NCBI GenBank assembly: GCA_938048185.1
Contig: CALIVT010000019.1
Span: forward strand, 1 to 64,000
Length of the DNA stretch: 64,000 bases
Direction of reading: 5' to 3'
Source: an uncultured Arenicella sp.
Lineage (GTDB): Bacteria > Pseudomonadota > Gammaproteobacteria > Arenicellales > Arenicellaceae
Shown piece after piece: positions 7,446 through 43,879 of this stretch. The notes beneath the pieces are model-generated. The model was given only the letters and a program-made list of their open reading frames with translations. It was not told the origin of the DNA and did not search any database. How positions within the stretch are numbered: position 1 is the stretch's first letter; every line of letters begins with the position of its first letter. Both the position numbers and the translations under genes were made by a program.

Positions 7446-7554
7446 AAGGCTCTCCTTGTTGTGATGTAAATATCCAACTTAAGTATGTTTTTGCCAAAAT
7501 AAGAAAGTCAATGGATTAAAATATTGCGCCCTTCAACATCGACGCCAATCGCCA

Positions 7555-22978: not shown

Positions 22979-23351
22979 CTATTCGAGATGCGCTTAGCTT
23001 GGTCAATAAAGATCATAGCCTATAGAAACGCGGGTTTTCTGACGACGGCAGCGTATCACTGCATCAAGTTTATAGAGTTACTGCCATAACTTTGATCGTA
23101 TACGAGCGAATTGCGTAAAGTCGAGTTGTGTCGAAAGATTAAGAGGCCTCATTTATAGAAATTTTCTATGGAAAGCAAAAGCTTAATCGTGCGCTTCTTT
23201 GTTGCCTCATACGAAAACCTAACTTGTCATTAAACTCCTTAAAAATTAGTGGCGCTCTTAGCCAGAGCGACTTATGCTAGTTCCGTTTCGCCCAAGCTGT
23301 GGTACTTGTTTGGTGAGAACACTCCCTACAGACAATAAAAATAGGATTACC
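22979..23351. other. Intergenic region before the S8 peptidase gene
   Basis: No gene seen. A short hairpin (CGCTCT-TAGCC-AGAGCG) lies about 85 bases before the peptidase start. An in-frame ATG at 23274 exists but would place 26 extra polar residues before the signal peptide, so it is not used. TAGGATTACC just before the ATG at 23352 can act as ribosome site. Confidence 0.5.
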
Positions 23352-25430
23352 ATGAAAATTAAAGAAACCTTCTTGCGTCATACCTTGTGTGGCGTGTCTT
23401 TGGCTTTGTTAAGCCAGTCAGCGGTTGCCGTCTTTCCCAGTGATCAATCAAATATCGTTAATCCAAGAGCGATTGCCGCGGCAACAAATAAGTCTATTGT
23501 TACTCCACGTTTCATTGTTAAGTATGTTGACAGTGCAAATACTCGGTCGCTGTCCAGCTCGTCTTCGAATTTATCGGCTATGGCGGCGGCAAGCGGGCAC
23601 AAAATGAAAGTTTTGCGCGAAACGGCTACCGGTGCTTATGTCGTTCAAGTTCAGGGTGATATGACTCAGAATGACATTCAAAATATGGTGCAAGAGATGT
23701 CGGGAGATCCGAACATTGAGTACTTTGTAAAAGACCAATTGCTGCAGGTTATGGCGACCCCGTCAGACCCTCGTTATGGTGAGCAATGGCACTATTTCGA
23801 AGCTGACGGCGGGCTCAATTTACCCGATGCATGGGATAACTCTACTGGCGAAGGCGTTGTCGTTGCGGTGATCGATACTGGTATCACAAACCATTCTGAC
23901 CTTCGGGCAAATATTTTGCCGGGTTATGACATGATAAGTGATGCGACTATCGCTAATGATGGTGACGGGCGAGATGCCGATGCTAGCGATACCGGCGATG
24001 CGACTGCGAATGGTGAGTGCAGTGAGACCTCTGTTGGTCGTAATAGCAGTTGGCATGGTACTCACGTGGCCGGCACCGTCGCCGCCGTTGCAAATAACGG
24101 GCGTGGTGTGGCAGGTGTTGCCTATAACGCGAAAGTTGTTCCTGTTCGCGCCTTAGGTCGTTGCGGCGGTTTTACGTCAGACATAGCGGACAGTATGATT
24201 TGGGCCGCCGGTGGCCGTGTTCCCGGAGTACCGACCAATCGCAATCCGGCACAAGTTTTGAACTTAAGTCTAGGTGGGAGTGGGTCCTGTAACGCCGCTT
24301 CCCAGGATGCAATTAATCAAGCCGTTGCCCTTGGCACAACGGTTGTAATTGCGGCGGGTAATAGCAGCACTAACGTAAGCGGAGCGACTCCTGCAAACTG
24401 CAATAACGTAGTCAGTGTGGCTGCAATTGGTCGTAGTGGCGCTCGTGCAAGTTACTCTAATTTTGGTAACTTGGTCGATGTAGCTGCTCCTGGCGGCGAT
24501 CAGCTCAGTGGCGGGTTCACGTCGGGCGTTTTATCTACGCTGAATACTGGCCGCACATCGCCACAGAACGAAACCTACCAGTTCTATCAAGGAACGAGTA
24601 TGGCGGCTCCACACGTAGCGGGTGCTGCTGCTCTACTGTATTCACTGAACAGAGATATAACCCCAGCCGAAGTAGAGAATATTCTTGAAACAACCGCCCG
24701 AGCGTTTTCAGCAAACTGCGGTGGTTGTGGCGCCGGTGTAGTGGACGCCGCTGCGGCGGTCGCAACACAGGTTTCCACTCCCGATAGTGCAACATTCATA
24801 ATTGCCAGTAACCAAACCATCTCACGATGGAACGGTTCATCCTTCGAGCGATTTGGCCCTAGTGGCGGCCGCTTGGTGCGCATCGACGTGGGCGAAAATG
24901 GCCTTCCATGGGGTATCAATCGGGCAGGCAATATTTATGAATGGACAGGTAGTCGCTGGGTGAATCGTGGTGCCAATGGTCAAGGCATTGCCGTAGGTGG
25001 TGGCGAGGTGTTCTTGACGCGAACAGACGATACGATCTGGCGATGGAATGGCTCGTCTTTCGAGCGCTTTGGCACTCCTGGCGGCCGCTTGCAGCGCATC
25101 GATGTTGGCGCAGATGGCGTGCTGTGGGGCATCAATGTTAACAACGATGTCTATCAGTGGAATGGTCGCCGATGGTTGCGTCGTAGCTCCGATGGCCAGG
25201 ATATTGCCGTGGGTGGTGGCAACGTGTTCATGACGCGAACAGACGATACAATCTGGCGTTGGAATGGCTCGTCTTTTGAGCGCTTTGGCCCTAGCCGAAG
25301 TCGCTTGCAGAATATTGACGTTGGCGAAGATGGCGTGCTGTGGGGCGTTAATGTTAACGGCATGTCCTATTTTTGGAATGGCAGCCGGTTCATAAATGTC
25401 GGCGACAATGCGCTCGAGATTGGCCGCTAA
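23352..25430 (+). CDS. Secreted S8 (subtilisin-like) peptidase with propeller tail
   Basis: 692 residues from ATG 23352. Order: signal peptide (1-26, LALLSQSAVA), I9 propeptide (about 50-135, ending DPNIEYFVKDQ), S8 catalytic domain with Asp175 (VAVIDTGITNH), His235 (WHGTHVAGT), Asn337 (AAGNSS) and Ser416 (GTSMAAPHVAG), then a repeated beta-propeller-like tail (about 490-692). Paired Cys suggest disulphides and an extracellular place. The tail repeats contain WxWNGSSFERFGP and DVGxDGxxWGIN, similar to tectonin-type blades, which bind sugars in other proteins. A terminator follows. It is monocistronic. Probably a scavenging protease that binds a glycan-rich surface, the second point being inference. 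Confidence 0.9.
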   Translation: MKIKETFLRHTLCGVSLALLSQSAVAVFPSDQSNIVNPRAIAAATNKSIVTPRFIVKYVDSANTRSLSSSSSNLSAMAAASGHKMKVLRETATGAYVVQVQGDMTQNDIQNMVQEMSGDPNIEYFVKDQLLQVMATPSDPRYGEQWHYFEADGGLNLPDAWDNSTGEGVVVAVIDTGITNHSDLRANILPGYDMISDATIANDGDGRDADASDTGDATANGECSETSVGRNSSWHGTHVAGTVAAVANNGRGVAGVAYNAKVVPVRALGRCGGFTSDIADSMIWAAGGRVPGVPTNRNPAQVLNLSLGGSGSCNAASQDAINQAVALGTTVVIAAGNSSTNVSGATPANCNNVVSVAAIGRSGARASYSNFGNLVDVAAPGGDQLSGGFTSGVLSTLNTGRTSPQNETYQFYQGTSMAAPHVAGAAALLYSLNRDITPAEVENILETTARAFSANCGGCGAGVVDAAAAVATQVSTPDSATFIIASNQTISRWNGSSFERFGPSGGRLVRIDVGENGLPWGINRAGNIYEWTGSRWVNRGANGQGIAVGGGEVFLTRTDDTIWRWNGSSFERFGTPGGRLQRIDVGADGVLWGINVNNDVYQWNGRRWLRRSSDGQDIAVGGGNVFMTRTDDTIWRWNGSSFERFGPSRSRLQNIDVGEDGVLWGVNVNGMSYFWNGSRFINVGDNALEIGR
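24825..25430 (+). repeat. 216-base in-frame repeat encoding propeller blades (2.8 copies)
   Basis: Units start at 24825, 25041 and 25257, exactly 216 bases (72 codons) apart. Each opens with a near-identical stretch encoding RWNGSSFERFG. The third is cut short by the stop codon. The high DNA identity between the later copies points to recent duplication or gene conversion. Each 72-residue unit seems to hold two tectonin-like blades. Confidence 0.75.
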
Positions 25431-27995: not shown

Positions 27996-30827
27996 GTGAT
28001 TGAAAAAATAACCATCCGCGGTGCGCGGACGCACAACCTCAAAGGTATTGATTTAGAGCTACCACGTGACAAATTGATTGTCATCACGGGTCTCTCAGGA
28101 TCGGGCAAGTCGTCGTTGGCCTTCGATACCATCTATGCCGAAGGTCAACGCCGTTACGTAGAATCTCTATCGGCCTACGCACGCCAGTTTTTATCGTTGA
28201 TGGAAAAGCCAGATGTAGACGTTATTGAAGGTTTGTCACCTGCGATTTCAATCGAGCAAAAAGCGACCTCACACAACCCGCGCTCGACGGTCGGTACGAT
28301 CACGGAAATTTATGACTACATGCGCCTGCTATTTGCGCGTGTAGGTGACCCGCGCTGCCCTGAACATCAAGTAACCTTAGAAGCGCAAACCATCAGTCAA
28401 ATGGTGGACCAGACCATGGAGCTTAAAGCAGGCACTAAAGTGATGTTGATGGCACCTGTGGTGCGCGACCGTAAAGGCGAATTTGCCAATTTGCTTGAAA
28501 GCATGCATGCCCAAGGCTTTGTGCGCGCGCGCGTTGACGGACAGGTCATTGACTTATCTGAGCCACCGGCTCTTAAAAAGAATTTCAAGCACAACATCGA
28601 CATCATTATTGATCGTTTGGTAATCAAAGAAGGCAATGAACAACGCATGGCTGAGTCGTTCGAAACCGCACTCGAATTAGCCGAAGGCGTGGCCGAAGTG
28701 CTGGTGATGCCAAGCGATACGGAAAAAGAGCGTACCTTAGTGTTTTCGGCGCGCTATGCCTGCAACCATTGCGGTTACAGTCTAAGCGAGCTAGAACCGC
28801 GTTTATTCTCGTTTAATAACCCGGTTGGCGCCTGCACCTCGTGCGACGGTTTGGGCAACAAACAGTACTTCGATCCGAAGCAAATAATCTTTGATGACGG
28901 AATCAGTTTGTCTCAAGGTGCAATTAAGGGTTGGGACCGACGCAGCCTATTCTATTTTAGAATGCTGCAAAACGTCGCTGATCACTATGATTTTTCGGTC
29001 GATGAACCACTGAGCACGTTAAACAAAAAACAACGTGAGAAGCTGCTGTATGGCAGTGGCGAAGAAGCAATAGAATTCAGCTACTTACGGCATAAAGGTA
29101 AAGGCGTTACACGGCATCATTCCTGGGAAGGCATTATTCCTAATATGGAGCGCCGCTACCGTGAAACAGAGTCGAACAGTGTGCGCGAAGAACTGGCGAA
29201 ATACATTAGCTCGCAAAGCTGCCCTGATTGCAGCGGCACGCGTTTGCGTCTTGAAGCGCGCAATGTGTTTATTGATAAAACCAGTATCGACCAAATTGTA
29301 AGCCGCTCAATTGGCGACGCGTTAGCGTTCTTTGAACAACTCACGTTAAGCGGTAATCGGGCCGAGATCGCCGAGAAAATAGTGAAAGAAATTCACGACC
29401 GACTGGGCTTCTTGGTGAACGTAGGCCTCAATTATCTAAGCATGGACCGCTCCGCCGAAACCTTATCAGGCGGCGAAGCTCAACGAATTCGATTAGCGTC
29501 GCAAATTGGCTCAGGCTTGGTTGGGGTGATGTACGTGCTTGACGAGCCCTCTATCGGCTTACATCAACGTGACAACGATCGTTTGATCAGCACGCTTACG
29601 CACTTACGTGATCTTGGTAACACCGTTATTGTGGTTGAGCATGACGAAGATGCGATGCAACACGCCGACTATATTGTCGATATTGGGCCCGGCGCTGGCG
29701 TGCACGGCGGGCAGATCGTAGCCCAGGGCACGATCGAGCAGATCAGGAATAACCCGAAGTCGCTAACGGGTAAATTCTTATCCGGGGTAGAGAAAATTGC
29801 CTTACCTGACGCACGAAATAAACCCAACAAGAAAACCCAGATCAGCATTAACGGCGCGTCGGGCAACAACCTAAAAGACGTGTCGGTTGATATTCCAATT
29901 GGCTTGTTGACCTGCGTCACCGGGGTTTCTGGCTCCGGCAAGTCAACCTTAATCAACAACACGCTCTACCCCGCTGCAGCGCAGCTAATCAACCGTAGCC
30001 GTCTTGAAGCGGCGCCACATGTCAGTATCAAGGGTTTAGAACAGGTTGATAAAATTGTCGATATTAACCAAAGCCCGATTGGGCGCACACCGCGCTCAAA
30101 CCCGGCGACTTACACCCAATTGTTCACGCCAATTCGCGAGTTATTCGCCGGCACACCCGAGGCGCGAGCACGCGGTTACAAGCCCGGCCGCTTCTCGTTT
30201 AACGTTAAAGGCGGTCGCTGTGAAGCGTGTCAAGGCGACGGCATGATTAAGGTCGAGATGCACTTTCTACCGGATATTTACGTTGCCTGTGATGTGTGTA
30301 AAAGCGAGCGCTATAACCGCGAAACCTTAGACATTCGCTACAAAGGCCAAAACATTCACGATGTGCTAAATATGACGATCGAAGATGCCACCGACTTCTT
30401 TAGCGCGGTGCCAAACATTCATCGAAAACTCGAAACCTTGATGTCGGTCGGCTTGGGTTATATCAAGCTAGGTCAAAGCGCGATCACGCTTTCGGGCGGG
30501 GAAGCACAGCGCATCAAGCTTGCGCGCGAGCTGTCAAAACGTGATACCGGCCAAACACTTTATATTCTCGACGAGCCGACCACCGGCTTGCACTTCTTTG
30601 ATATTCGCCAACTCTTAGAGGTATTGCATAAACTAAGAGATCATGGAAATACGGTGGTGGTGATTGAGCACAACCTCGATGTGATCAAAACGGCAGACTG
30701 GATTATTGATCTCGGTCCTGAGGGTGGTAATGGTGGCGGAGAAGTGGTAGCCCAAGGCACGCCAGAAACGGTGGCGAAAACGAACGGGTCTTATACCGGA
30801 AAATATCTAGCGCCATTTCTTAACTAG
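27996..30827 (+). CDS. uvrA: Excinuclease ABC subunit A (UvrA)
   Basis: Damage-recognition ATPase of nucleotide excision repair, acting as a dimer with UvrB. 943 residues with two ABC modules: Walker [10 protein letters not shown] (32-40) and GVSGSGKST, two LSGGEAQRI signatures, and D-loops [11 protein letters not shown] and [11 protein letters not shown]. Zinc-binding Cys pairs are present (CNHCG with [14 protein letters not shown] with CDVCKSE). Starts with GTG ([14 protein letters not shown]). No convincing LexA box was found in the 170 bases upstream, so SOS control is not evident. Together with uvrC at 11910 this window holds two of three core excision-repair genes. Confidence 0.97.
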
Positions 30828-30918
30828 CGCCCGACTCTTCAAACGTTTTCATCAGTTGCCTAACTCGATCGTCACTGGCGAGTAGCAAGCGAGTGAGGTA
30901 ACCGTTCAGTTGTAGCGT

Positions 30919-31329
30919 CTATTTTTCGATAACTTGGTTCGCGGCTTGCCAGCCGAGCATGTCGCCGTCTAAATGGTAAACCGCTTTCGTGCCGGTAAAG
31001 CCCGATTTCGTTAATAAGTCGGTAACACGCCCGGCTCGCACTCCGCTGCGGCAGTAGAAAACTAAGTCTTTACCTTGATATTGATCGAGCAAAGAGATGT
31101 TATCCAAGATGTCGCCATGCGGAATGTTAATTGCATTAGGCACCCGGCCTTGCGCGAACTCGCCAGCAGAGCGAACGTCAATAATGACGGCATTAGGGTT
31201 AGCCGCGATTTTCTGCGCTAGCTCTGCGTGCGACAAATCAATGACACCAAGCTGTGCATACACGTTCGAGTAGACCGCGACGGCCAATAGCACGATCGAA
31301 ATCTTTACATAATTCATTATATATTTCAT
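30919..31329 (-). CDS. Exported rhodanese-domain protein
   Basis: 136 residues from the ATG at 31329, which overlaps the stop of the C25 peptidase gene (ATGA). A longer frame begins 33 bases earlier but lacks this logic. Signal peptide IVLLAVAVYSNVYA, then a single rhodanese domain with VIIDVRSAGEFAQGRVPNA and the active-site loop CRSGVR (Cys93-Arg98). Single-domain periplasmic rhodaneses (PspE/GlpE type) move sulfane sulphur or act on Cys thiols. As the last gene of the giant protein-peptidase operon it may keep the peptidase's catalytic Cys in the right state. This is a guess from context. Confidence 0.85.
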   Translation of the reverse strand: MKYIMNYVKISIVLLAVAVYSNVYAQLGVIDLSHAELAQKIAANPNAVIIDVRSAGEFAQGRVPNAINIPHGDILDNISLLDQYQGKDLVFYCRSGVRAGRVTDLLTKSGFTGTKAVYHLDGDMLGWQAANQVIEK

Positions 31330-33509
31330 AAAGTTAACTCCGGAAACCCTAATAAGGTCCAACCAAGAATCACGTCCAGCGCGCCGCCACGTTTGCTTGC
31401 AAACTCTTGCTTAGCGTCAGTGATAGCTTGGCCTAGCATCTGCCCTTGCGTGAGTCGTTCAAACACTAAGCGCGCCAATATTTTTTCACTTGAGGCACTG
31501 GTAAGCGTGGTCGCGCCCATCACGGCCACCGCGCCGCGGTTACCTTCCATCATAAAACGATGGCCCATAGAATCTTCATTAGGGTTCACGTAATAGGTAT
31601 TCCAACACCCCCATTGCGTCACAATAGTGGGCCGATTTGCGTTATGTAGATTAGCGGCATCAAAGCCATTAAACATGCCATCGAAGGTCCATTGCGAGGT
31701 TGACGAGTGTCCAAAAAACGACGTTAACGATACGCCCTGATTGATGCTATCAATCACCGTTCGACGAGCTTCGCCTGCGCTCATGTCATCAATAAACGCT
31801 GTATCCACGGTCCAGTCAGAGAAAAACTCCTCTTGCACGCTTAGCGCGTCGAGCTTGAAACTGTATTGTTCGAGCGGGTCAAAACCGTCGGCGGCGAACA
31901 TTGCCCGTCTATTGTACGTGCGGTTCATATACGCCGTACGCTTAGCAATTAAAACCTGCAACTCAGCCATGCTGCGCACTGGCAAGCGGCCGATTGGAAT
32001 GTCAGGTGTATCATTGTCATCAAAATCGACATACTTCGCGTCTACCGGTGCAAAATTAATCAAGTCATCTGTCGCAACGTAAATTGACGGAATGAAACTG
32101 CGAGCATCTCGGTTTTCGAAACCCTTGTAGTCATAGACATCACCACCCACCATCAACACGACCTGGGTGCCACGATTCTCGTAGGAAAATTTAAGATAGT
32201 CACGAATCGCTTGCGGGTCAAAAATATGGTCGCCAAATTGAGCGTAAATTTGTTCAACGTCAACCACATCAACACTCGCAAAACCTGAGTCAGCGACCAA
32301 GCTTTGTGCGAGCGTGGCTAACAAATCTTGTTCACCAGCAGCCGGTAAAAAATCGGCATGCGTGACAATTAAGTACTGCGCGTCGCCGCTGCGTATGTCC
32401 TCACTCAACGGCAAGTAAGATAACTCAGCTTGTTTTACACTGTTCGGGGTTACCACGTGATAACTGGCGACGTTTAGATCACTGCTGAACCGTACTGAGC
32501 AACGCGGCGTTTGAGCGTTACATGTTCCGCCCGCCTCAGCCGCGACCAAGTTTGCGACATCGCCATCATCGACTGCGCTCCGGTAGACCGACACTTGATC
32601 ACTGTTAAAACCTCTGATGCGAAAATTAGTGCCGCTTGAGGTGAAAGACAAGGCATCGTCTTGCGCAACAAACGCTCGAGGATACTTAATTTCAATTGAA
32701 TTTAAATTCAGCGCTTCAAACTCATAACCCTGATCAAGCGGTAACTCCATACGTACACTGTTTTGCCCAACCCGTACATTAGACAAGGTAGTACTCATTC
32801 GTTTTTCAGCAAAGCCGTCAAACGTTTCATCTAGTACCGCTTGGCCATTTAATTGAACGCGAACATGATGGTCATCCAACGTACCCGGCAAATCAGTACC
32901 ACCCCACACTTTGACGATCATCTCCGGCTTGGTGGCGCCAGTATTGCCGCCCGGCACCATGTCGTCGAGCGTTATCGTCACTGTCTCGCTGGCGGGTTTG
33001 CGCAAGGCTAATATACGCTGGGCGTAAAACGGGTCTTGCTTGTCCGGCGACGCGAACGTATACGCATTTTGTGGCGCGTACATTTCACTTGCCAAATAGC
33101 TGGTCGCAAACGGCACGCGTTGTGCAAAGGTAACGGATTGCTGCGTAATACTGCGGTGCTGCTCAGTATCCAAACGCAGGGTGTATACGTTTGTGTCGGT
33201 GTATAGGGTGTCCAGCCGCTGGGCAACAAAGCGTAAGTAAGCGCCCGCGCCGAACTTGGTGGGGTCGCTGGTGCTGCCGACTAACTCAAGTTGCACCGCT
33301 TCGCCGCGGTTAATTAACGCAATTCGACTAAGCGGTTCGCCAGTCATATCCAGCCCGCTGCCGACAAGCTGCGCGTGCGTAACTTGATACACGCCGTCTT
33401 CTTTTACGTTTAAGTTGATCAAGTCTTCAGCGTTCAAGTCTTGCGCTATGGTCTTACTAACAATGAGTGAGAGCGATAAAGCCACTAACGTGCTATTTAA
33501 TAATTTCAT
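31326..33509 (-). CDS. Gingipain-type cysteine peptidase (family C25)
   Basis: 727 residues, exported (signal peptide LVALSLSLIVSKTIAQ). The N-terminal ~230 residues are beta-rich (KEDGVYQVTHAQLVGSG at about 36), the region that often precedes C25 domains. The catalytic domain carries YLIVTHADFL, the fold-core DIPIGRLPVRS, catalytic His601 (FFGHSSTSQWTF) and catalytic Cys635 (TQWGCWNTYYV). These match the His-Cys dyad of gingipains. It starts 3 bases after the giant-protein stop, so the two are co-translated. The usual C-terminal sorting domain of Bacteroidetes C25 enzymes is absent, the sequence ending soon after the catalytic fold. Confidence 0.85.
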   Translation of the reverse strand: MKLLNSTLVALSLSLIVSKTIAQDLNAEDLINLNVKEDGVYQVTHAQLVGSGLDMTGEPLSRIALINRGEAVQLELVGSTSDPTKFGAGAYLRFVAQRLDTLYTDTNVYTLRLDTEQHRSITQQSVTFAQRVPFATSYLASEMYAPQNAYTFASPDKQDPFYAQRILALRKPASETVTITLDDMVPGGNTGATKPEMIVKVWGGTDLPGTLDDHHVRVQLNGQAVLDETFDGFAEKRMSTTLSNVRVGQNSVRMELPLDQGYEFEALNLNSIEIKYPRAFVAQDDALSFTSSGTNFRIRGFNSDQVSVYRSAVDDGDVANLVAAEAGGTCNAQTPRCSVRFSSDLNVASYHVVTPNSVKQAELSYLPLSEDIRSGDAQYLIVTHADFLPAAGEQDLLATLAQSLVADSGFASVDVVDVEQIYAQFGDHIFDPQAIRDYLKFSYENRGTQVVLMVGGDVYDYKGFENRDARSFIPSIYVATDDLINFAPVDAKYVDFDDNDTPDIPIGRLPVRSMAELQVLIAKRTAYMNRTYNRRAMFAADGFDPLEQYSFKLDALSVQEEFFSDWTVDTAFIDDMSAGEARRTVIDSINQGVSLTSFFGHSSTSQWTFDGMFNGFDAANLHNANRPTIVTQWGCWNTYYVNPNEDSMGHRFMMEGNRGAVAVMGATTLTSASSEKILARLVFERLTQGQMLGQAITDAKQEFASKRGGALDVILGWTLLGFPELTL

Positions 33510-33512
33510 CTT

Positions 33513-36500
33513 TTAACTCCCACTCTTGAGCATGCGTTGCTGACGTTCGCGACTGCGTTCGAGCATTTTCTCTCGACGTTTCGCATCTCGCGTCTGTTGC
33601 TTAGTTTGACTGCGTTTGATCGAATCACTCCAATCAGTGGTTTTGCGTTGCTGCTCAGCACCGTAGGCTTTGCCAATTAAGAACGGCCCATGCAGCTCTT
33701 CTTCACCACGTGCGTTAACGTCACTGATCGCAAGTGCGGTAACGCCGAGCGCCGATGCGCTAAACGAGTAAGACACAACTTCTACCGAATCACCCTGCCC
33801 TGGGATTACGTCAGGGTTCAAACGCTGCCAGTCGTCTTCACCGACCTTGCCGTATAAATTAAAGCCTAAGTTACCGACCTCGGTTTGTGTCTGCCATTCG
33901 ATAAGCAATGTTTGCCCGACTAATTGGCTGGTGAATTTACCCAGCACAATTGGTAAGTCGGCAATGTCTTCTAAAGTGACAATTGTTGGAGCAACGCCAC
34001 CACCCGAGCCGTCGGTTGGGTCATTACCGCTGTTTGACTGATCGCTGACGGTGCTGCCATCGGGCGCGGTTGCCGCGCCATCGGCCACATTACGAAAGTC
34101 AGCGGGTAGCACCGGCAATAAAGCCGGGTTCGCACGTACCGAAAACACGACCTGAATAACATCGCCTACGCCAAGTGTGCCGCTACTGCCATCAAAGATA
34201 TTGCCCGCGCCGCCATCGAATGTGGCGTCAACATTGGGTAATTGTAAATCGAGATCACCCGCATCGCTTACCACGCTTACCACCGGTGCAGTTAGTACGC
34301 CGCCACTGGTGTCAGTTGCCGCTGAAGGTACATACGCCGCACCGAATTGGGTGACCAAGTCGTCAAACAACTCGAGATTAGTCAGGTCTACATCACCTGT
34401 ATTCTGAATCAGAATGGTGTATTCCACATCGAATGAAAAATCATCATTAAAGGCTAATAATGTCGCTGATTTAGCAAGGCCTAGCTCAGGGTTCGGGGTC
34501 GGTGGAGTAAACGGGGTTGGCACACCCGCATCATCCGGCCCCGCAGTATCCGGGTCGATGCCGTTGTCAGACACATCATTGGCTTCGTTTGAGCCTCCGC
34601 TGGCAGAATTCTGTGCCGGGTCAGGGAATACACAGCCGGCTGCATTCGGATCAAACTGAACGCTAAAACCCGACACGATTAGGCTGTCGCCCACACCAAT
34701 GGAGTCGGCCATCGCAATAATTGGGGCCGCACCAGAGACTGCGTTAACTGAATCAGCAAGCGGCGCAACATCATTTACCGAGACAATTCCGGCTTGCGCG
34801 ACACCGACATAGCAGGCGCCAAACTGCGCCGGAATATCATCTGAAATAGTCACGTTGTTTAGTGAAATATTGCCTAGGTTCTTGAGTTCAAAGTCGAAGC
34901 TTTGATCAAACGACCCGTCACTATTAAGCGTCGCCGTGCCCGCTGATTTAACCAAACTCATTGAGGGTGTTTGCACAACATCAGTCTCTTCTCGGTCAGT
35001 AGCGTTCTCTAAGCCACCACCCGGCGCAGTGCCCATCGCAGCGACTTCATTGATGACAACGCCTGCGTTCATCTCATCTTGGGTAACCGGTATTGAGGTA
35101 CACGAATACGCCCATTGTTCCGCAGCGGGCACCCCCCCTGCTCCGGCTGGCGACAACACATTATCGCTACCAACATCAGTGCTGGTATCGAGCGTCGCGA
35201 CGCCGCCAACGCATTTGGCGTCTTCGACAATAATCGTGTTGATACTGGTATTACCGGTGTTGGTAAGTACAAATGTATAGTCCAGCGTTTGATTAGCCGC
35301 AGTGGGCACCGACAGAGTTGACTTATCTATTTCCCAAGCGGGTGTTCGCGGCAGTAAGGTATTGGTTGGATCATCGTCGCCCGTACCGCCGTCGCCGCTG
35401 TTAGCAGTATCAGAATCATCGTCGACCGGATTGCCCGCTGGGTCTTGGCCTGAGCCATTGGCGGTATTTTGAACAGTACCCGCGTCTAAATCAGTTTGCG
35501 TGATCGCGTAGCCACAAGAGAACACCCACGTTTCCCCTACATCTAGAGACTGAGCAATGACGCCTGTATCACCGGACACATAGCCGCTTGAGAACGACAA
35601 TGGCGACGCAGGGGTTTGGCACTGAGCATCGGTAATTATCGGGTTGCTGATGGTGACGTTGCCTGAATTTCGTAAACTAAACGTATACGTCACTACTGAG
35701 CCCGCCGCGACTGGGGCCACAATGCTTGAGGTTTTTATTAGCTCAAGCATTGGGTCAGGCGCAACACCGGTCTCGACCGTGCTTGGCGGCACCGGAGGTA
35801 TGGTGCCGTTAGCTGGCTCGCCGTCGGCCGTAGCGGTGTTAGCGATAGCTGTTGTTGGGTCTGCAGCGGCCGCCATATTATCCAGATCTTGTTGCGAGAT
35901 TTCGTACGTCGCAGTAAACAGCTGGCTAGTGCCTGGGGCCAATTGTGCAACAGTCGGTGAGTAACCACTCAAGGCATTAGTGCCGGTCACACCATTAAAG
36001 GTTGGACCGAGATCAATTGGTGCAACGTTAGATATCGATACGTTACCGGTATTCTCCACCGTGTAGTTGTAGGTAATGATCGTGCCAGCAGTGACGTTTG
36101 CAGGAATCGTAAGCACCGACTTATCGATGCTCAACGACGGCTCAGGCGTGATCGGCACCATGCTGCCACTGGACGCTTCAGGCGGAGGAGGAACATCGCC
36201 CGGTGGGTCACCGGCTGCGGTAGCAGTATTCGATATACTTCCGGCGTCGATATCAATTTGAGTCAATTCATAGTCAGCAGTACACGTTACCCCGTCGCCC
36301 GCAGGCAGTGGGTCGGTATCGAGTACAAACGCGGTGGCCGTGCCGCTGAGCACACAATTAAAAGAGCCGTTGTTTGGCGAGGCAGTGATCAGCGGGTCAA
36401 GCAGCGACACCGTTTCAAAGGTCACGTTGCTCTCGTTAACGATATTAAAGGTAAATGTGACGCTGTCGCCGACATCGGTTGCGGTTAACAGTGTGCCGTC

Positions 36501-39500
36501 CGCATCACTAGGAATGCCAGCTACTTTATCTAAGGTAATCGCAGAGAAAAGCTGAGCTCTCACAACCGCCGAGCTGGTGCTGGACGGTACATCCAGACCT
36601 GAATCGACAGGCGGAGTGCCACTGCCGGTCGCGGTATTGGTTATTTCACCGCCAGCGTCAAGATCATCGCTTGTGAGCGCATACTGACACTCAAAGGTCC
36701 AGCTTTCTCCGGCGTCGAGTATTCCGTCCGAATTATCGTCGGTCAGTAAATCCAAGCCGTTGGTCGCGGTTAGCGGGCCCGCCGGAATTTGGCATTGACC
36801 ATCGTCCACCTGCGCGCCTGTCAAACTAACGTTACCCGTGTTCTCCAACACGAAGGTATAGGTAATTAAATCATTGGCAACCGGCGCGGGCACGGTTGGC
36901 AGTGGCAACGCGCTCTTCTCAAGTGCGATCGACGTCTTCTGGGTAAACGATGTGGTTTCTTCAACAACACCATTAACCGGCGTGCCTGCGGGGTCGCTAC
37001 TGGTTACCGTTGCTGTGTTCACAACGTTGCCATTATTAATATCGGTCTGCTCGATAGTGTACGTCGCTAAACAGACTACGCTGTCACCGACTGCAAGCAC
37101 CGACGAGGCATCACCTAGGTTAGTAAACGCATCGCCTGATGGACTCGCAACTGCGGGGCAGTTGACCGTAGTTAGGCTGTCGGCGACCAGTACATTATCC
37201 AGAGCAGTATTACCGGTATTTTCTACTGTAATTTCGTAGTCAACGGTGTCGCCGGGGTCGGTCAAAACTGGGTCAAGACCGAGCACGGTCGTTGGCGCCC
37301 CCGCTGTTTTCAAAATTTGCACCATCGGGTCACTGGTGATGGACGTCATTGCCACGGATGGCGGCGAGGTTACCGCGCCAGTATCTGGGTCTTGGCCTTG
37401 CGCTTCGGCACTATTTTCAACCGAGTTGAGGCCAGCTGCCACCGCGTTGTTGACATCAGTTTGGGTCAGCGTATAGGTGGCGCTACAAGTCGTCGACTGC
37501 ATCGGCAATAGGGTCGTCACAGGGCACGACACGCCAGTCCAATTGGCGGCGGTTCCAGCGTTTCCAGCAAATGTCGGGCCGGGGTCAACAACCGTCAACG
37601 CTGAAATGCTCACATTGCCCTCATTAGTAACGACAAACGAATAGCTAATGGTGTCGCCCGCATCGGTCGCACTGCTGATACCTCCAAGGCCGGTCGTCGG
37701 GGCCGCTGCGGTTTTTTCGATACTCAATTCCGCCATCGGTAAAATGGTCGTGGATTCCGTCGCTTGGTCCGGTGCAAGTGGCGGTGCGCTTGGCGGCGCG
37801 GAGCCGGTCACGTCAACGGTGTTGTCCACCATGCCGTCATCAACTTCGGTCTGCGTGACCGCGATCGATGTACATTCATAGGTCCATGTTTCGGGTGGCG
37901 ACAAAATCAAATCGGAACCGATATCACCGCTTATCAAGACTGGCGCAACCGCGCATTTTGCATCGACCACAGACACGGAGCTGATATCCACATTGCCCAA
38001 ATTTTCGAGCATGAATTGATAAATCAGGGTGTCCCCCGCTACGCTGGGCGTCGAGTTGGTGCCTTTGGTGATGTTCCAATCAGACACTTGATCCAGAGGT
38101 GTGTCGACACTCGCGTCGTCTTCAATTGTCGCGCCCGATGGATCTTGCCCTCCGCCGGTCGCCATATTGGCAACCGTTCCGGCATTGATATCTGCTTGTG
38201 AAATTGGGTAGGTACAACTAAAGCTCCACACCTCACCGACATCCAACGCGCCTGGTGTGGCACCGGTATCACCTGAATCAAAGCCACTGGTAAATGTCAG
38301 TACGGCGCCCGGCACAACGCAACGAGCGTCATTAATCACCGGGTTTTCAAGTGTCACATTGCCGGTATTGCTTAAGGTAAATGTGTAGTTGATATCCGCG
38401 CCAGCAATAACCGGCACCGGGGCTGTTGAATTTTTCGCCAACTCGACCAGTGGGTTGGGTGCTGCACCAGTTTCGGTCACACTCGGCTCAATGGTTGGTA
38501 AGGAACCGTTTTCAGGCACACCGGTCGCGCTGGCAGAATTATCAATCGCGGTTAACGGATCAACCGCCGCCGCAATATTATCAATATCGGTCTGCGATAA
38601 CTCGTAAGTCGCCATAAAGCTTTGAGACGTGTTGGGCTGAAGGCTAACCGGAGTCGGAACAAACGCCGACAAATTATTAGTGCCCGGCGCACCATTAAAA
38701 GTGGGCCCAGAGTCTACCGGCGTTACGCCGTCAATAGTGACATTGCCGGTATTTTCAACAACGACGGTATAGGTAATTAAGTTCCCTTGTGCAAGCGGCG
38801 CGGTCAAAGTACCCACCGATTTTTCAACCTCCAGATCAGGCATTGGCGCAATAGTAACCATGTTCGAGCTGCTGGCTTGAGGCGAATCAGCTTGTGGCAC
38901 GCTCGGTGGAGGCGTGCCGATAACGTCAGCGGTATTAGCAATCATCCCCGCATCAATATCCGGCTGGGTCACGCTATAGGTCGCCGTACACGTAACCGTA
39001 TCACCGGGCACCATTAAACTAATGCCCGCTGGGCAATCTATATTACCGCTATTCGGAGCAGCGGTTATTAACGGGTCGGTCACCATGACGTTGGTCAGTG
39101 TCACGTTGCCGGTGTTTTCAACTAGGAAACTATAGGCAATGGTATCGCCGACGTCAGTAGCAGTCGTCAGGTTTCCAGCGCTCACCGTTGGTAACGACGA
39201 TGACTTGTCTAGCGCGATTGCCGCATTTTGTTGTGCCTTGGCTAAGTTACTCGCTGTGTTGCTGGGGTCAGGCAAGCCCGAGCTCGGGGGCGGTGTTCCA
39301 GTGCCGGTAGCGGTATTAGCAACTTCACCATCATCAACGTCATCTTGGTCAATTGTGTATACGCACTCAAACTCCCATGTTTCGCCGGCTTCCATCTCAC
39401 CAACCGCACCGCCATCACCGCGTTGATAACCATTGGTAAAGGTGAGCGGACCAGCAGGCACTTCACAAATCGGGTCGGTTATTTGCGGTGACGTCAGGGT

Positions 39501-42500
39501 CACGTTACCCGTATTGGTCAACATGAACGTATAGGTAATCGGGTCACCGTCGTTCGCAGGGTCAGGTAACGGAGTAGCAGACTTAGTCAACGCCACTGAC
39601 GTCTTCTGGGTGAACCCTGAGTCAACCACGCTGGTGTCACCGACGCCGACTCCCGTCGGGTCCGTACTCGCGACGGTAGCGGTGTTTTGTACCCCGCCGG
39701 CGTCTAGGTCAGTTTGTTCTAATACATACTCGGCGGTACACACAACGCCATCGCCCACTAAGAGCTCGGCACTGCCATCATTAATGAAAGGATTGCCTAA
39801 GTTAGTCGTTGCTGGGCACGTTACCGCTGCGATCGAATCAGTTACTAGCACGTTGCTCAACGTGGTATTGCCGGTGTTGTCCACTGCCAGTTGATAAGCA
39901 ATGCTGTCACCCGGGTCGACCAGTGTTGCGTCCGCGCCATTCGTCGTGGTTGGTGCCGACGCCGACTTGGCGATTTCAATCGAGGCGTCATTCGCGATGG
40001 TTGCGTTCGCAGTCGCGTCTGGTGAGTTGACTGGGTTATCAGCAGGGTCTTGTCCAGTGGCCGTTGCGGTGTTCTCTACCGCATTCGCGCCACCGATGAT
40101 CGCGTTGTCGACATCAGCCTGCGACAGTGTATAGGTCGCGGTACACGTGGTCATTTGACCAGGGTCTAAGGCAGTAAGTGGACAATTAATGGCGGACAAG
40201 CTGCCGCTGCCTGCGGCGCTGTTAAAGGTCGGCCCACTGTCATCGATACTCAGCATATCAATCGTCACGTCACCTGAGTTAGTGACCTCGAAACTATATG
40301 CAATGGTGTCGTCGGCATCGGTCGCCGCGGTATTTAAACCGAGGCCCACCGTAGGCACACCGGCCGATTTCGCAACCTCTAACGTTGCGTCTAGCGTAAA
40401 ACCGGTTACCGCCGTACTGTCTGGCACGGTCGGCAGCGTGCCGCCGGTTGGTTCGCCAGTTGCTGACGCGATGTTTTCAATCGCGGTTGTGGTGTCAGCC
40501 GCCGCAAACATATTATCAATATCTTGCTGCGACAATACGTAGCTTGCCGTCACCGTAACTGGAACTGGCGCCGCGGGTGGTACAGCGGGCAACAGTGTCA
40601 CCGTCGCTGGAGAAAAACCACTCAACGAATTAGTTCCCACAACGCCGTTAAATGTTGGGCCACTATCAGTTGGAACCGCATTATTGATTGTCACATTACC
40701 CGTGTTTACTAATTCATATTCGTAGGTAATAGTGTCGCCGGCTTGCGAAAACACCGGCGCGGCGGCCACGGACTTAGCCACGGTCATTGACGGGTCTGGT
40801 AGAAACCCGGTTTCTACCGTGCTGTCGGGCACGGTCGGTAACGGCGCAGCGCCAACAGGGTCACCGCTGGCACTGGCGGTATTATCAATCGCGGTCAGTG
40901 GGTCTGCCGCTGCCGCCATATTATCGACATCGTCTTGTTGCAACTGATAAGTGGCAGTAAAAACTAGATTTTCCTGAGGTGCAATACTGGCCGCAGGTGG
41001 CGTAAAGCCTGAAAGCGTACCCGCCGCGGCGATACCATTAAACGTTGGCCCAGCGTCAGTCGGCACAACGCTGTCAACGGTAATATTGCCGGTATTGGTA
41101 ACCGTATATTCGTACGTAATAGTGTCGCCGGCCGCACTAAAGCTGGTTGCCGCACTAACGCCTTTAACTACCGTAAGACTTGGCATCGGCGCGAAGCCGG
41201 TTTCAACGGTGCTGTCTATGACTGGCGCTAAAACTCCATCGACTGGGTCGCCAACAGCGCTCGCGGTATTGTCTATCGCGGTCAGTGGGTCACCGGCAGC
41301 GGCCATTAGGTCTACGTCAACTTGATTTAATAAGTACGTTGCGGTGAATACTTGCGAATTGCCTGGCGTGATCGTGACCGAAGGCGGAGAGAAGCCGACC
41401 AAGGCGTTAACCCCGGGAAACCCATTGAAGGTTGGCCCGCTGTCAGTAGGCATTACATTTTCAATGTCTACATTACCCACGTTGCTAATTAGATAACTGT
41501 ACGTAATCGTGTCACCCGCCGCGTCGAAACTGGTATCCGGACTGATCGATTTCTGTATTGTCAACTCAGGAACTGGAGGCTCCGAGACGGTGAAGGTGAA
41601 GGTTAATTGGTCACGCGACGAGCAAACACTTTCGTTCGCGAGCGCGGTACTGGTTTCGTTGGTTAGAATCGCCCCCGGCGCCACGCTTGCGTCAACTTGG
41701 GCGACCACGGTTAATGTACGATCAACGCCAACCGGCACATTGACATCGGTCCACGATATTGTTTCAGGTGGGCCTGCACTGGTCGTCACGATGCCGTTGT
41801 CTGCGCTCGCCGATACCAAATTCAAACCTGGCGGCAAAGTATCAATAAGGTTGCCGCCGGTTGCGTTTTCAGGGCCAGCATTCGACATAATGATTTCGAA
41901 CGTAATAAACTCACCTGGCTCGGGCGACGCCAGGCTGCCGGGTGCCAACTGCTTAATCGTGGCCATTTCAACTAAGTTGATTGCAACTCGGGTACCGTCA
42001 AACGGTACGTCACCGTCTGCATCGTGCACAAACCAACGGCCACCGGTGGTCGCGAAGTAATTCACTACCCAACTCGATATTCCGTTCCAGGAGTACTGTA
42101 AATAACCTTCTTGCTGATTACCATTTTGATTCTGTGTGCCCTCACCAAGAATGTTACCGCCGGACTCCGAGACTCGAATATTGGTCTGACATTGCGTATT
42201 AGTATTGGCGTTACACACGCCCCCGTTCGGCAAGCCAAAATCACCGTTGATCGTATACGATGTGAGCCCAGCGCACGCCGCAGAAACACTTTCAATGGGG
42301 CTACCGTTGCTGCCATCAATATCGGTGATTAGAAAGTTAGGGTCGGCCAGAATAGGCGCGCCGGTAGCGGCGTTGAATACTTCCCATAACACGCTGGAGT
42401 CAAGCGTGCCGGTATTGGCTCTGACCACCGGGTTGTCACCGCTGGTAAAAAAACTGACCGTGTCTCCGGCTGAAATTGAGGTAAGCGTGGCACGTAAGCT

Positions 42501-42707
42501 GATCGGAGTGCCATTGACCGACCCAGCATTTGGCCAAAATTGGGAGGTACCGGCCACCCCGGTGGTGACGGTAGGCGGCGCGTTCGATATTGAAATCAGT
42601 GTTTGCCCGTGCGCCACTGCCGCAAAAACACTATAGAGTGCGAAAAATACTGCGAATTTTAGGCTTAGCACCAGTTTCTTATATACGCTCTGACTCGTTC
42701 TTTCCAC
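33513..42707 (-). CDS. Giant secreted DUF11-repeat protein
   Basis: 3064 residues with a signal peptide (SLKFAVFFALYSVFAAVAHG). A unique N-terminal region (about 35-250) is followed by one DUF11 domain (SNAGPENATGGNLIDTLPPG) and then about 19 related modules of 100-135 residues. Each opens with a pattern like L-x-V-x-K-S, then G-D-x-I-x-Y-x-x-x-x-N-T-G-N-V (for example GDTITYEYTVTNTGNITVD). Almost no Cys-rich or catalytic segment is seen. The C-terminal ~150 residues change style: FTSQLVGQTLLIEWQTQTEV, GNLGFNLYGK, ending in a very basic tail (RREKMLERSRERQQRML). The gene heads an operon with the C25 peptidase and rhodanese. A long cell-surface adhesin or fibre cut by the peptidase is the likely role. 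Confidence 0.85.
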   Translation of the reverse strand: MERTSQSVYKKLVLSLKFAVFFALYSVFAAVAHGQTLISISNAPPTVTTGVAGTSQFWPNAGSVNGTPISLRATLTSISAGDTVSFFTSGDNPVVRANTGTLDSSVLWEVFNAATGAPILADPNFLITDIDGSNGSPIESVSAACAGLTSYTINGDFGLPNGGVCNANTNTQCQTNIRVSESGGNILGEGTQNQNGNQQEGYLQYSWNGISSWVVNYFATTGGRWFVHDADGDVPFDGTRVAINLVEMATIKQLAPGSLASPEPGEFITFEIIMSNAGPENATGGNLIDTLPPGLNLVSASADNGIVTTSAGPPETISWTDVNVPVGVDRTLTVVAQVDASVAPGAILTNETSTALANESVCSSRDQLTFTFTVSEPPVPELTIQKSISPDTSFDAAGDTITYSYLISNVGNVDIENVMPTDSGPTFNGFPGVNALVGFSPPSVTITPGNSQVFTATYLLNQVDVDLMAAAGDPLTAIDNTASAVGDPVDGVLAPVIDSTVETGFAPMPSLTVVKGVSAATSFSAAGDTITYEYTVTNTGNITVDSVVPTDAGPTFNGIAAAGTLSGFTPPAASIAPQENLVFTATYQLQQDDVDNMAAAADPLTAIDNTASASGDPVGAAPLPTVPDSTVETGFLPDPSMTVAKSVAAAPVFSQAGDTITYEYELVNTGNVTINNAVPTDSGPTFNGVVGTNSLSGFSPATVTLLPAVPPAAPVPVTVTASYVLSQQDIDNMFAAADTTTAIENIASATGEPTGGTLPTVPDSTAVTGFTLDATLEVAKSAGVPTVGLGLNTAATDADDTIAYSFEVTNSGDVTIDMLSIDDSGPTFNSAAGSGSLSAINCPLTALDPGQMTTCTATYTLSQADVDNAIIGGANAVENTATATGQDPADNPVNSPDATANATIANDASIEIAKSASAPTTTNGADATLVDPGDSIAYQLAVDNTGNTTLSNVLVTDSIAAVTCPATTNLGNPFINDGSAELLVGDGVVCTAEYVLEQTDLDAGGVQNTATVASTDPTGVGVGDTSVVDSGFTQKTSVALTKSATPLPDPANDGDPITYTFMLTNTGNVTLTSPQITDPICEVPAGPLTFTNGYQRGDGGAVGEMEAGETWEFECVYTIDQDDVDDGEVANTATGTGTPPPSSGLPDPSNTASNLAKAQQNAAIALDKSSSLPTVSAGNLTTATDVGDTIAYSFLVENTGNVTLTNVMVTDPLITAAPNSGNIDCPAGISLMVPGDTVTCTATYSVTQPDIDAGMIANTADVIGTPPPSVPQADSPQASSSNMVTIAPMPDLEVEKSVGTLTAPLAQGNLITYTVVVENTGNVTIDGVTPVDSGPTFNGAPGTNNLSAFVPTPVSLQPNTSQSFMATYELSQTDIDNIAAAVDPLTAIDNSASATGVPENGSLPTIEPSVTETGAAPNPLVELAKNSTAPVPVIAGADINYTFTLSNTGNVTLENPVINDARCVVPGAVLTFTSGFDSGDTGATPGALDVGEVWSFSCTYPISQADINAGTVANMATGGGQDPSGATIEDDASVDTPLDQVSDWNITKGTNSTPSVAGDTLIYQFMLENLGNVDISSVSVVDAKCAVAPVLISGDIGSDLILSPPETWTYECTSIAVTQTEVDDGMVDNTVDVTGSAPPSAPPLAPDQATESTTILPMAELSIEKTAAAPTTGLGGISSATDAGDTISYSFVVTNEGNVSISALTVVDPGPTFAGNAGTAANWTGVSCPVTTLLPMQSTTCSATYTLTQTDVNNAVAAGLNSVENSAEAQGQDPDTGAVTSPPSVAMTSITSDPMVQILKTAGAPTTVLGLDPVLTDPGDTVDYEITVENTGNTALDNVLVADSLTTVNCPAVASPSGDAFTNLGDASSVLAVGDSVVCLATYTIEQTDINNGNVVNTATVTSSDPAGTPVNGVVEETTSFTQKTSIALEKSALPLPTVPAPVANDLITYTFVLENTGNVSLTGAQVDDGQCQIPAGPLTATNGLDLLTDDNSDGILDAGESWTFECQYALTSDDLDAGGEITNTATGSGTPPVDSGLDVPSSTSSAVVRAQLFSAITLDKVAGIPSDADGTLLTATDVGDSVTFTFNIVNESNVTFETVSLLDPLITASPNNGSFNCVLSGTATAFVLDTDPLPAGDGVTCTADYELTQIDIDAGSISNTATAAGDPPGDVPPPPEASSGSMVPITPEPSLSIDKSVLTIPANVTAGTIITYNYTVENTGNVSISNVAPIDLGPTFNGVTGTNALSGYSPTVAQLAPGTSQLFTATYEISQQDLDNMAAAADPTTAIANTATADGEPANGTIPPVPPSTVETGVAPDPMLELIKTSSIVAPVAAGSVVTYTFSLRNSGNVTISNPIITDAQCQTPASPLSFSSGYVSGDTGVIAQSLDVGETWVFSCGYAITQTDLDAGTVQNTANGSGQDPAGNPVDDDSDTANSGDGGTGDDDPTNTLLPRTPAWEIDKSTLSVPTAANQTLDYTFVLTNTGNTSINTIIVEDAKCVGGVATLDTSTDVGSDNVLSPAGAGGVPAAEQWAYSCTSIPVTQDEMNAGVVINEVAAMGTAPGGGLENATDREETDVVQTPSMSLVKSAGTATLNSDGSFDQSFDFELKNLGNISLNNVTISDDIPAQFGACYVGVAQAGIVSVNDVAPLADSVNAVSGAAPIIAMADSIGVGDSLIVSGFSVQFDPNAAGCVFPDPAQNSASGGSNEANDVSDNGIDPDTAGPDDAGVPTPFTPPTPNPELGLAKSATLLAFNDDFSFDVEYTILIQNTGDVDLTNLELFDDLVTQFGAAYVPSAATDTSGGVLTAPVVSVVSDAGDLDLQLPNVDATFDGGAGNIFDGSSGTLGVGDVIQVVFSVRANPALLPVLPADFRNVADGAATAPDGSTVSDQSNSGNDPTDGSGGGVAPTIVTLEDIADLPIVLGKFTSQLVGQTLLIEWQTQTEVGNLGFNLYGKVGEDDWQRLNPDVIPGQGDSVEVVSYSFSASALGVTALAISDVNARGEEELHGPFLIGKAYGAEQQRKTTDWSDSIKRSQTKQQTRDAKRREKMLERSRERQQRMLKSGS
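35000..40400 (-). repeat. Seven-module block duplicated in the giant protein
   Basis: Modules 4-10 (minus strand, from about 40400 to 37745) and modules 11-17 (about 37740 to 35000) match one by one in the same order. Each pair shares features absent from other modules: PTVGLGL/PTTGLGG; DPGDSIAYQ/DPGDTVDYE; KTSVALTKSATPLP/KTSIALEKSALPLP; DVGDTIAYSF/DVGDSVTFTF with PLITAAPNSG/PLITASPNNG; SGPTFNG/LGPTFNG; ARCVVPGA/AQCQTPAS; SDWNITK/PAWEIDK. The spacing between partners is about 2.66-2.74 kb. Boundaries are approximate. Confidence 0.75.
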
Positions 42708-43108
42708 TGAAACACTCTCGCTATAATGAGGTCAAAATTGTCCTCTGCATCAGAAACCGCTTATTTCAATACTCGACTTTAGAGTCGAGCACACACAATA
42801 GTAAGCGGTCAATTAAACGTGGCCCCAAACTTTAGCCACACGTTATCCAACAAAGGATACCATCCGAAAACCGTGGACGCAGCTTTAAATAGTTCCGTTA
42901 AACTGCTGTTTTAGCATATTTAAACCTTTTTTACATTTGCCCCTTTCGCCGCCGCCTGAGGAAAATGTAATCACAATAACCACGCTTTTCGTCGGCCGCC
43001 CCTTCACAGCGAGCCCTATTCAGCCTCGGATTTGTGACCAACAACAGACATAACAATGGTAATCTTTTGTCTATTTCCTCGAAGAACTAACCTGACCACG
43101 ATCACACC
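42708..43108. promoter_or_regulatory. Control region of the giant-protein operon and yaaA
   Basis: About 400 bases between divergent genes. The main feature is a perfect inverted repeat CTCGACT-TTAG-AGTCGAG at 42772-42789, 65-82 bases upstream of the giant protein's start. It could be an operator or a 5'-leader hairpin. No consensus sigma-70 pair stands out on either strand. Confidence 0.45.
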
Positions 43109-43879
43109 ATGTTAATTTTAATTTCACCCGCTAAAACACTTGACTTTGAAACACCGCCAACAGCGCCTACTCACACGCAACCAAGCATGTTGTCGCAAAG
43201 CGAAAAACTAATAGACATACTCACTACAAAGTCGCCGACTGACATCGAAAACCTGATGAAAATCAGCCCAAAACTCGCTGAGTTAAACGTTGACCGATAT
43301 CATAAATGGTGTCGCCCGTTTACCAAAAAAAACTCGAAGCAGGCGATATTGGCATTCAAAGGTGACGTTTACACCGGCCTCGAGGCAGACCAGTTCACTC
43401 ACCAAGACTTTAGCTATGCGCAAGACCACTTACGTATCCTCTCTGGCTTGTATGGCGTGCTTCGTCCGCTCGACCTAATACAGCCCTATCGCCTTGAAAT
43501 GGGGATCAAACTCGAGAACCCCTTGGGTAAAAACTTATATGAGTATTGGGGCGAAAGCATTACCGAAAAAGTAAACAAGCAGTTAAAAGCGATAAAGTCT
43601 GATTTGGTACTAAATTTAGCGTCCAATGAGTATTTCAAATCGGTCAAGCTCAAAGCGCTAACAGCGGACGTCGTTACCCCAGTTTTTAAAGACTGGAAAA
43701 ATGGCCAATATAAAATGATCAGCTTTTACGCAAAAAAGGCACGTGGCGTCATGTCTGCCTGGGTTATTCAAAATCAAATCGAAGACCTTGATAGCCTTAT
43801 AAAGTTCAAACAAGACGGCTACAAGTACAGTGCCAGAGACTCAGACGCACTTAACCCGGTGTTTCTGCGCAAACAATAG
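43109..43879 (+). CDS. yaaA: Peroxide stress protein YaaA
   Basis: 256 residues, full length for the DUF328/YaaA family. Conserved opening LILISPAKTLDFETP, then FKGDVYTGL, LRILSGLYGVLRPLDLIQPY and RLEMGIKL, and the end segment FYAKKARGVMSAWVIQNQI. In E. coli YaaA is induced by OxyR and limits free iron and DNA damage under H2O2. It is a cytoplasmic DNA-binding protein with a cantaloupe-like fold. The start is ATG with a weak ribosome site. Convergent with the truncated haemoglobin gene. Confidence 0.95.
   Translation: MLILISPAKTLDFETPPTAPTHTQPSMLSQSEKLIDILTTKSPTDIENLMKISPKLAELNVDRYHKWCRPFTKKNSKQAILAFKGDVYTGLEADQFTHQDFSYAQDHLRILSGLYGVLRPLDLIQPYRLEMGIKLENPLGKNLYEYWGESITEKVNKQLKAIKSDLVLNLASNEYFKSVKLKALTADVVTPVFKDWKNGQYKMISFYAKKARGVMSAWVIQNQIEDLDSLIKFKQDGYKYSARDSDALNPVFLRKQ

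Follow-up and report, generated by a model that had tools for sequence, protein, structure and literature searches.

Peptidases of family C25 are best known as the gingipains of Bacteroidota and as PorU, the sortase of the type IX secretion system (T9SS), which has a T9SS C-terminal domain of its own and acts as one enzyme on many substrates that share a tail. Among the gingipains, RgpA and Kgp are known as adhesin-plus-protease polyproteins, and the gingipain pro-domain inhibits its enzyme; elsewhere in clan CD, self-processing domains of the C80 type release giant proteins. The stretch of DNA analyzed here (the window: 64,000 nucleotides of contig CALIVT010000019.1, assembly GCA_938048185.1, from an uncultured Arenicella sp.) encodes a C25 peptidase directly downstream of a secreted repeat protein of 3064 residues, hereafter the giant, and directly upstream of a rhodanese. 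Our comparison of this locus with its relatives shows that, in evolutionary terms, the giant and the C25 make up a single unit of two halves, and we give a probability of roughly one in two to the reading that the peptidase acts on its own partner only and processes it at the linker or tail behind a conserved module. The features of the locus are the following.

33513..42707, minus strand: giant secreted repeat protein, 3064 residues, GTG start (open reading frame list and Pfam)
34317..41930, minus strand: DUF7507/DUF11 repeat array of the giant (Pfam matches)
33660..33965, minus strand: C-terminal module of the giant, LxxF...W.T..E..N.GF.LY...HGPF..G..YG, common to fused C25 proteins (profile A2, E 2e-35)
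33516..33635, minus strand: basic tail of the giant, beginning DWSDSIKRSQ, 40 residues with 13 K/R and 6 D/E; it occupies the position of the linker in fused proteins
31326..33509, minus strand: PorU/gingipain-like C25 cysteine peptidase, 727 residues, ATG start (open reading frame list, Pfam and model)
31605..31709, minus strand: catalytic dyad, His601 (GHSS, codon 31707-31709) and Cys635 (WGCWN, codon 31605-31607)
30919..31329, minus strand: periplasmic single-domain rhodanese, ATG start (open reading frame list and Pfam PF00581)

Fused and split relatives of the giant and its peptidase

To the loci from genomes of the window's family we added 78 loci from a pattern scan of GTDB contigs (the best 80 of 108 relatives), which gave a survey of Gammaproteobacteria, Acidobacteriota, Chloroflexota and a few other taxa. 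The 104 distinct C25s comprised 60 that were fused behind the module, 35 that were split from it, with the module at the end of the gene immediately upstream, 2 fusions with a broken frame, and 7 that were cut or masked. Wherever the DNA upstream of a C25 of this clade could be read, the module was present. All readable relatives titled Acidobacteriota or Chloroflexota, or as one of their classes or orders, were fused (L100, L108, L131 and L136 were cut or masked, the C25 of L136 being preceded by a stretch of unknown residues), and in L085 the module was broken across two frames. Split forms with a taxon title were all gammaproteobacterial except L133, titled Candidatus Binatia, which is nested in an Arenicella clade and may be a misbinned contig. 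Small fused members measured about 1000-1280 residues, and fused giants of congeners occupied single open reading frames of 4495 and 4119 residues (L046 and L049). We rejected L061/L021 as a case of a lone C25, since an out-of-frame open reading frame with the module overlaps it.

The same association was found within the window's family, where 17 of 21 genomes held a C25 and the same 17 held the module; G002 had neither, nor did the three genomes from two other genera. The window's genome encodes four C25 proteins, split as well as fused, and the two forms therefore coexist in one genome. In its second split pair (C27), the C25 was 50% identical to that of the window and followed, after 10 nucleotides, a giant with the same module and basic tail, while its two fused C25s (L006 and L007) were single proteins of 1270 and 1110 residues that ran from an N-terminal part through the module and a basic linker into the C25. 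A relative with 71% identity belonged to an uncultured Arenicella. Across the window's genus, 64 of 67 module matches had a C25 behind them on the same strand, at a distance of 117-304 nucleotides. The first of the three exceptions ran in frame through the linker into the C25 N-domain until the contig ended, the second lay 21 nucleotides from a contig end, and the third was L206 (1453-4179), a leucine-rich protein in which a module relative is combined with the T9SS sorting tail TIGR04183 (50.5 bits), and whose contig, placed in a metagenome-assembled genome of this genus, is probably contamination. Conversely, the C25 matches that had no module (7 of 70) all lay at contig edges. Of 369 sampled genomes from the window's class, 14 held the module and 13 the C25, with both in 12; the module occurred by itself in G213 and G240, and the C25 by itself in G344.

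The pairing of giant and C25 is real and widespread, and because relatives from several phyla have the two as one continuous protein, it is almost certain that they function together as a unit. On this unit the earlier note, which was made from the DNA of the window alone, proved well founded, and the link is stronger than that DNA could reveal: it had mentioned C25-fused module proteins from other bacteria, a form that we found in 60 of the 104 distinct C25s, including two in the window's own genome, and it had proposed that giant and peptidase are parts of one unit, which agrees with the fused versions and with the presence of both in the same 17 of 21 genomes. The presence of one C25 per module points to a partner in cis or a one-to-one partner, and not to one shared sorting enzyme.

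Several pairs showed features of their own. At L072:2427-9914, two fused C25 genes with equal match scores lay in tandem in one genome. At seven loci (L005, at 7036-7554 on the plus strand, and L041, L042, L044, L045, L046 and L047), a small protein of 160-205 residues was encoded 43-112 nucleotides after the C25, with a leader resembling RR..LL.G...WHKPVINS..TPAHAQ; the one copy searched had no Pfam or NCBIfam match. By eye, these seven loci form one class of pairs with SdrD-like repeats. Also by eye, the C25 lay directly upstream of a miaB-like gene at L051, L055, L058, L060, L063 and L066, mostly in pairs with an acidic tail, which makes this a possible favored genomic site.

The module, the linker and the peptidase

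The giant of the window scored far over the Pfam cut-offs for PF24346 DUF7507 (996.8 bits; cut-off 27) and PF01345 DUF11 (183.2 bits; cut-off 24.6), and 19 of the 21 DUF7507 matches of the whole genome fell within its open reading frame, at 34317-41570. Its order is an N-terminal part, DUF11 together with about 19 DUF7507 repeats, the C-terminal module and the basic tail; there are two DUF11 stretches, the better of which covers residues 260-352. The N-terminal parts differ between relatives, with DUF7507 in the window, a proprotein-convertase P-domain in L007 and an SdrD-like stretch in L102. The module had no match among PDB sequences at E values up to 5, and in the model of a fused relative it is predicted to be an all-beta domain. 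Module scores were higher in split pairs (median 170.5 bits, against 87.5), as expected of a profile that was built from split rows.

The C25 likewise exceeded its Pfam cut-off (PF01364 Peptidase_C25, 186.2 bits; cut-off 23), with an N-domain at about residues 27-370 and a catalytic domain that extends from residue 377 to the end of the chain at 727. In the alignment, His601 was conserved in 97 of 97 rows and Cys635 in 96 of 97, the remaining row being cut off at that point. The best PDB match of the split-C25 profile was PorU (E 4e-16), with gingipains next, and the predicted structure of the window's C25 (P0002; mean predicted local distance difference test score, pLDDT, 84.8) resembled both. 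Against PorU, the model gave a Z score of 21.2 over 548 residues at a root-mean-square deviation of 6.0 Å, spanning residues 27-727; against RgpB, it gave a Z score of 38.3 and 2.2 Å over 313 residues, spanning 377-727. The protein scored 144.9 bits against the PorU model NF033707, below the cut-off of 420. No T9SS sorting tail was found on the giant or the C25 (NCBIfam scan; E 0.001 for P0002); the same library that gave none for P0002 detected TIGR04183 in L206.

The closest solved relative over the whole length is titled latent PorU, and together with the all-beta fold predicted for the module and its place directly N-terminal of the PorU-like part, this would suit a module that acts as a pro-domain or chaperone, keeping the C25 latent until export, in cis in fused forms and in trans in split ones. 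We consider such a role unlikely, given that relatives of the module also occur in proteins that have no C25 and that the C25 retains its own PorU-like N-domain, which may suffice for latency.

The split state needed four changes on both trees of the C25 domains, one with 97 rows and one with 56 (simple model, unrooted; L004 was flagged as a long branch, and a dozen rows for unusual composition). In the 56-row tree, the split rows alone never formed one group (0 of 200 bootstrap trees); there were three supported clades that were wholly or mostly split, all of them gammaproteobacterial, with weak branches between them. A tree joining all three split clades was not rejected in the approximately unbiased test (p-AU 0.395), and for the two Arenicella clades alone the value was 0.33. 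Anything from one fission to three or more thus fits the data, and we abandoned three or more independent fissions as a firm count. The fused form is taken as ancestral because distant phyla are fused.

In all split clades, the break between the genes falls in the charged linker. We modeled the corresponding stretch of fused L080 (880 residues; pLDDT 88.4; predicted template modeling score 0.89), which is predicted to consist of the all-beta module, a confident long charged helix (119-152), a low-confidence linker (about 155-190) and the peptidase, and it is at this low-confidence linker that the split genes break. A signal-peptide-like segment within the linker was seen in 6 of the 60 fused proteins: on the tree, L016, L080 and L084 lay among split rows, L086 at the base of that clade, and L122 and L129 among fused rows. 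At L046:2831-16318, L080:3-5507, L084:3-7697 and L086:2-12148, the segment between module and C25 ended in AHA and sometimes followed an in-frame Met. These forms may have arisen by re-fusion, the signal peptide being a relic, or they may represent a stage before fission at which a signal peptide emerges within the fused gene.

The mechanism that we favor starts from the form of most relatives found, one exported polypeptide made up of a signal peptide, a cargo that often contains repeats, the all-beta module, a charged helix and flexible linker, a PorU-like N-domain and the C25 catalytic domain. In several gammaproteobacterial lineages, including that of the window, a break of the gene in the linker has left a C25 half with a signal peptide of its own, and because of that signal peptide both halves would be exported and would have to meet again outside the cytoplasm, probably by means of the retained module and tail. 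The C25 would be dedicated to its own partner and would cut at or near the linker or tail behind the module, so that fused forms would process themselves and split forms would either process one to one or act as a docked pair. We infer the physical pairing after export, the cleavage in the linker and the surface location from these comparisons. As to the exit route, the window's genome encodes a GspD secretin (G000:C1; 546.4 bits, with its neighbors in the frame), which makes type II secretion possible; a search for the SprA/Sov translocon of the T9SS matched 0 of 21 genomes, with controls equally silent.

Several observations weigh against this reading. The low confidence of the L080 linker may stem in part from the few rows aligned to the signal-peptide-like stretch of the query. 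The tails vary, being basic in the window's class of pairs and acidic in another class. Position D554 of the C25 aligns, by sequence alignment only, with Asp163 of RgpB, which we take to be its S1 residue; an Asp is present there in 35 of 35 split C25s, in 5 of 6 with an internal signal peptide and in 11 of 54 plainly fused ones. With so few of the plainly fused proteins carrying it, a common Arg-directed cut is unsupported, and the association of the Asp with the split state did not survive correction for the tree (4 independent pairs, median p 0.5). We accordingly discarded Arg-specific cleavage of a basic tail as a general rule, on the grounds of the acidic tails of one class, the absence of the S1 Asp from most fused proteins and the non-significant test of independent pairs. 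Outside this clade, within the sample of the window's class, distant C25s and weak, generic relatives of the module occurred unlinked in G052, G196, G251 and G384 (one module gene of G196 ends near a contig end) and fused in G077, G130, G205 and G246. The four genomes with unlinked cases led us to reject the idea that, across all bacteria, the module marks C25 partners exclusively, and the near-exclusive pairing is thus a property of this clade and not of the whole module superfamily.

Finally, the finding of one C25 per partner fits equally well with a tethered effector protease, in which the C25 would be the working end, digestive or defensive, the repeats a stalk or adhesin that keeps it close to the cell or substrate, and the module only a joint, with the giant left uncut and held non-covalently in split forms. 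The variable N-terminal parts, which recall the exchangeable accessory domains of secreted enzymes, and the retention of the dyad in all readable rows also suit such an enzyme. By itself, however, it would not explain why every split clade has its break in the charged linker or why the tail was kept on the giant after fission, and we regard it as less probable than not. Processing of the giant by its own C25 remains the account that we prefer.

The rhodanese and the layout of the locus

The earlier note had described three minus-strand genes joined by a 3-base gap and an ATGA overlap, all with signal peptides, and the layout is as it said: three bases (33510-33512) separate the stop codon of the giant from the ATG of the C25, the C25 stop and the rhodanese ATG overlap as ATGA, and all three products start with a hydrophobic leader that, judged by eye, resembles a signal peptide. 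Because of the ATGA overlap with the C25 stop, 31329 is the likely start of the rhodanese rather than the TTG at 31362. Promoter- and terminator-like matches over 30600-43200 did not rise above shuffled expectation, which leaves spacing as the sole hint of co-transcription; that spacing suggests that the three genes may be transcribed together. The locus is flanked by uvrA (27996-30827, plus strand, convergent) and yaaA (43109-43879, plus strand, divergent). Further off, at 23274-25430 on the plus strand, the window also encodes a subtilase that carries a tectonin domain (204.1 bits to Peptidase_S8 and 92.7 bits to Tectonin).

The overlap and the common direction are what speak for a three-part operon in which the rhodanese would serve the catalytic Cys of the C25. 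The protein is a clear rhodanese (PF00581, 70.2 bits; cut-off 22.2). Among 108 distinct C25s, 94 of them with at least 500 nucleotides of readable downstream DNA, the C25 of the window alone had a rhodanese behind it. The best match to this rhodanese elsewhere in the 21 family genomes (55% identity; G004, L155:1498-1947) is convergent to uvrA, as in the window, and lies beside a gene for an FAD oxidoreductase that resembles SQR (NF049943, 206 bits against a cut-off of 525), and neither a giant nor a C25 was present on the 3.3 kb in view. Linkage to 1 of 108 C25s, together with a closest relative that adjoins uvrA and the SQR-like gene without the pair, makes the three-part operon very improbable, and we rejected the rhodanese as a member of the system. 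To judge by its gene neighborhood, it looks like a bystander, a resident of the uvrA neighborhood that has come to abut the pair. The earlier note had treated the three genes as a set and had named their co-occurrence in other genomes as the test; the pair of giant module and C25 does recur, but among the C25 loci examined the rhodanese accompanies it in the window only, and the conserved triplet does not hold.

Comparison with known systems

The pairing of giant and C25 was undescribed in the literature searched, which consisted of titles and the starts of abstracts, with most subscription journals and all preprints outside it. The PorU-like branch described here occurs in Gammaproteobacteria, Acidobacteriota and Chloroflexota, is matched one to one with giants and has no T9SS tail where tested, and PorU-type processing may therefore exist outside the T9SS. 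The pair offers a simple system in which to test this; the places where the gene has split in nature point to the linker as the likely site of processing, and the small fused members, at about 1000-1280 residues, bring the processing question within reach of the laboratory. A fuller proposal would be a T9SS-independent, PorU-like maturation unit in which each giant has its own C25, a sortase-like peptidase that would cut the linker following a dedicated module and might also re-ligate there. The unit would have shifted in evolution between a single polypeptide that processes itself and a pair of genes with exported products, by way of a signal peptide that emerged in the processing linker, with the fused giants of about 4000 residues that contain an internal signal-peptide-like segment as a step before fission or as relics of re-fusion. 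Taken whole, we hold this proposal to be rather doubtful.

Among described systems, PorU of P. gingivalis (T9SS sortase; PDB 6za2) has the same order of an N-domain followed by a C25 catalytic domain, and a relative of the giant's module precedes a T9SS tail in one protein. The window's C25 differs in that it stops right after the catalytic domain, lacks a T9SS tail and misses the PorU cut-off, and in that there is one C25 per partner here, whereas PorU is known as one enzyme for many substrates. We call the analogy close because PorU cuts a linker between Ig-like domains, ahead of a T9SS tail, and because a module relative directly precedes the T9SS tail in L206; a published study of PorU describes that linker as unstructured, lying between two Ig-like domains and cut independently of sequence (PMC4804311).

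The gingipains RgpB and Kgp, members of a group of Arg/Lys-specific endopeptidases, share with the window's C25 the catalytic fold and the His-Cys dyad. The locus differs from them in that its repeats are N-terminal and not C-terminal, there is no T9SS tail, the PorU-like N-domain is kept and the S1 Asp is not general. Self-processing clan-CD domains of the C80 type resemble the unit in that a giant exported protein contains a caspase-like domain, but they belong to another family, and in some of the lineages described here the two parts have genes of their own. Lastly, giants with DUF11/DUF7507 and SdrD-type repeats resemble the N-terminal part of the window's giant in their repeat content, whereas the window's giant, for which the NCBIfam scan gave no curated sorting tail, ends in a module tied to a C25, followed by a tail.

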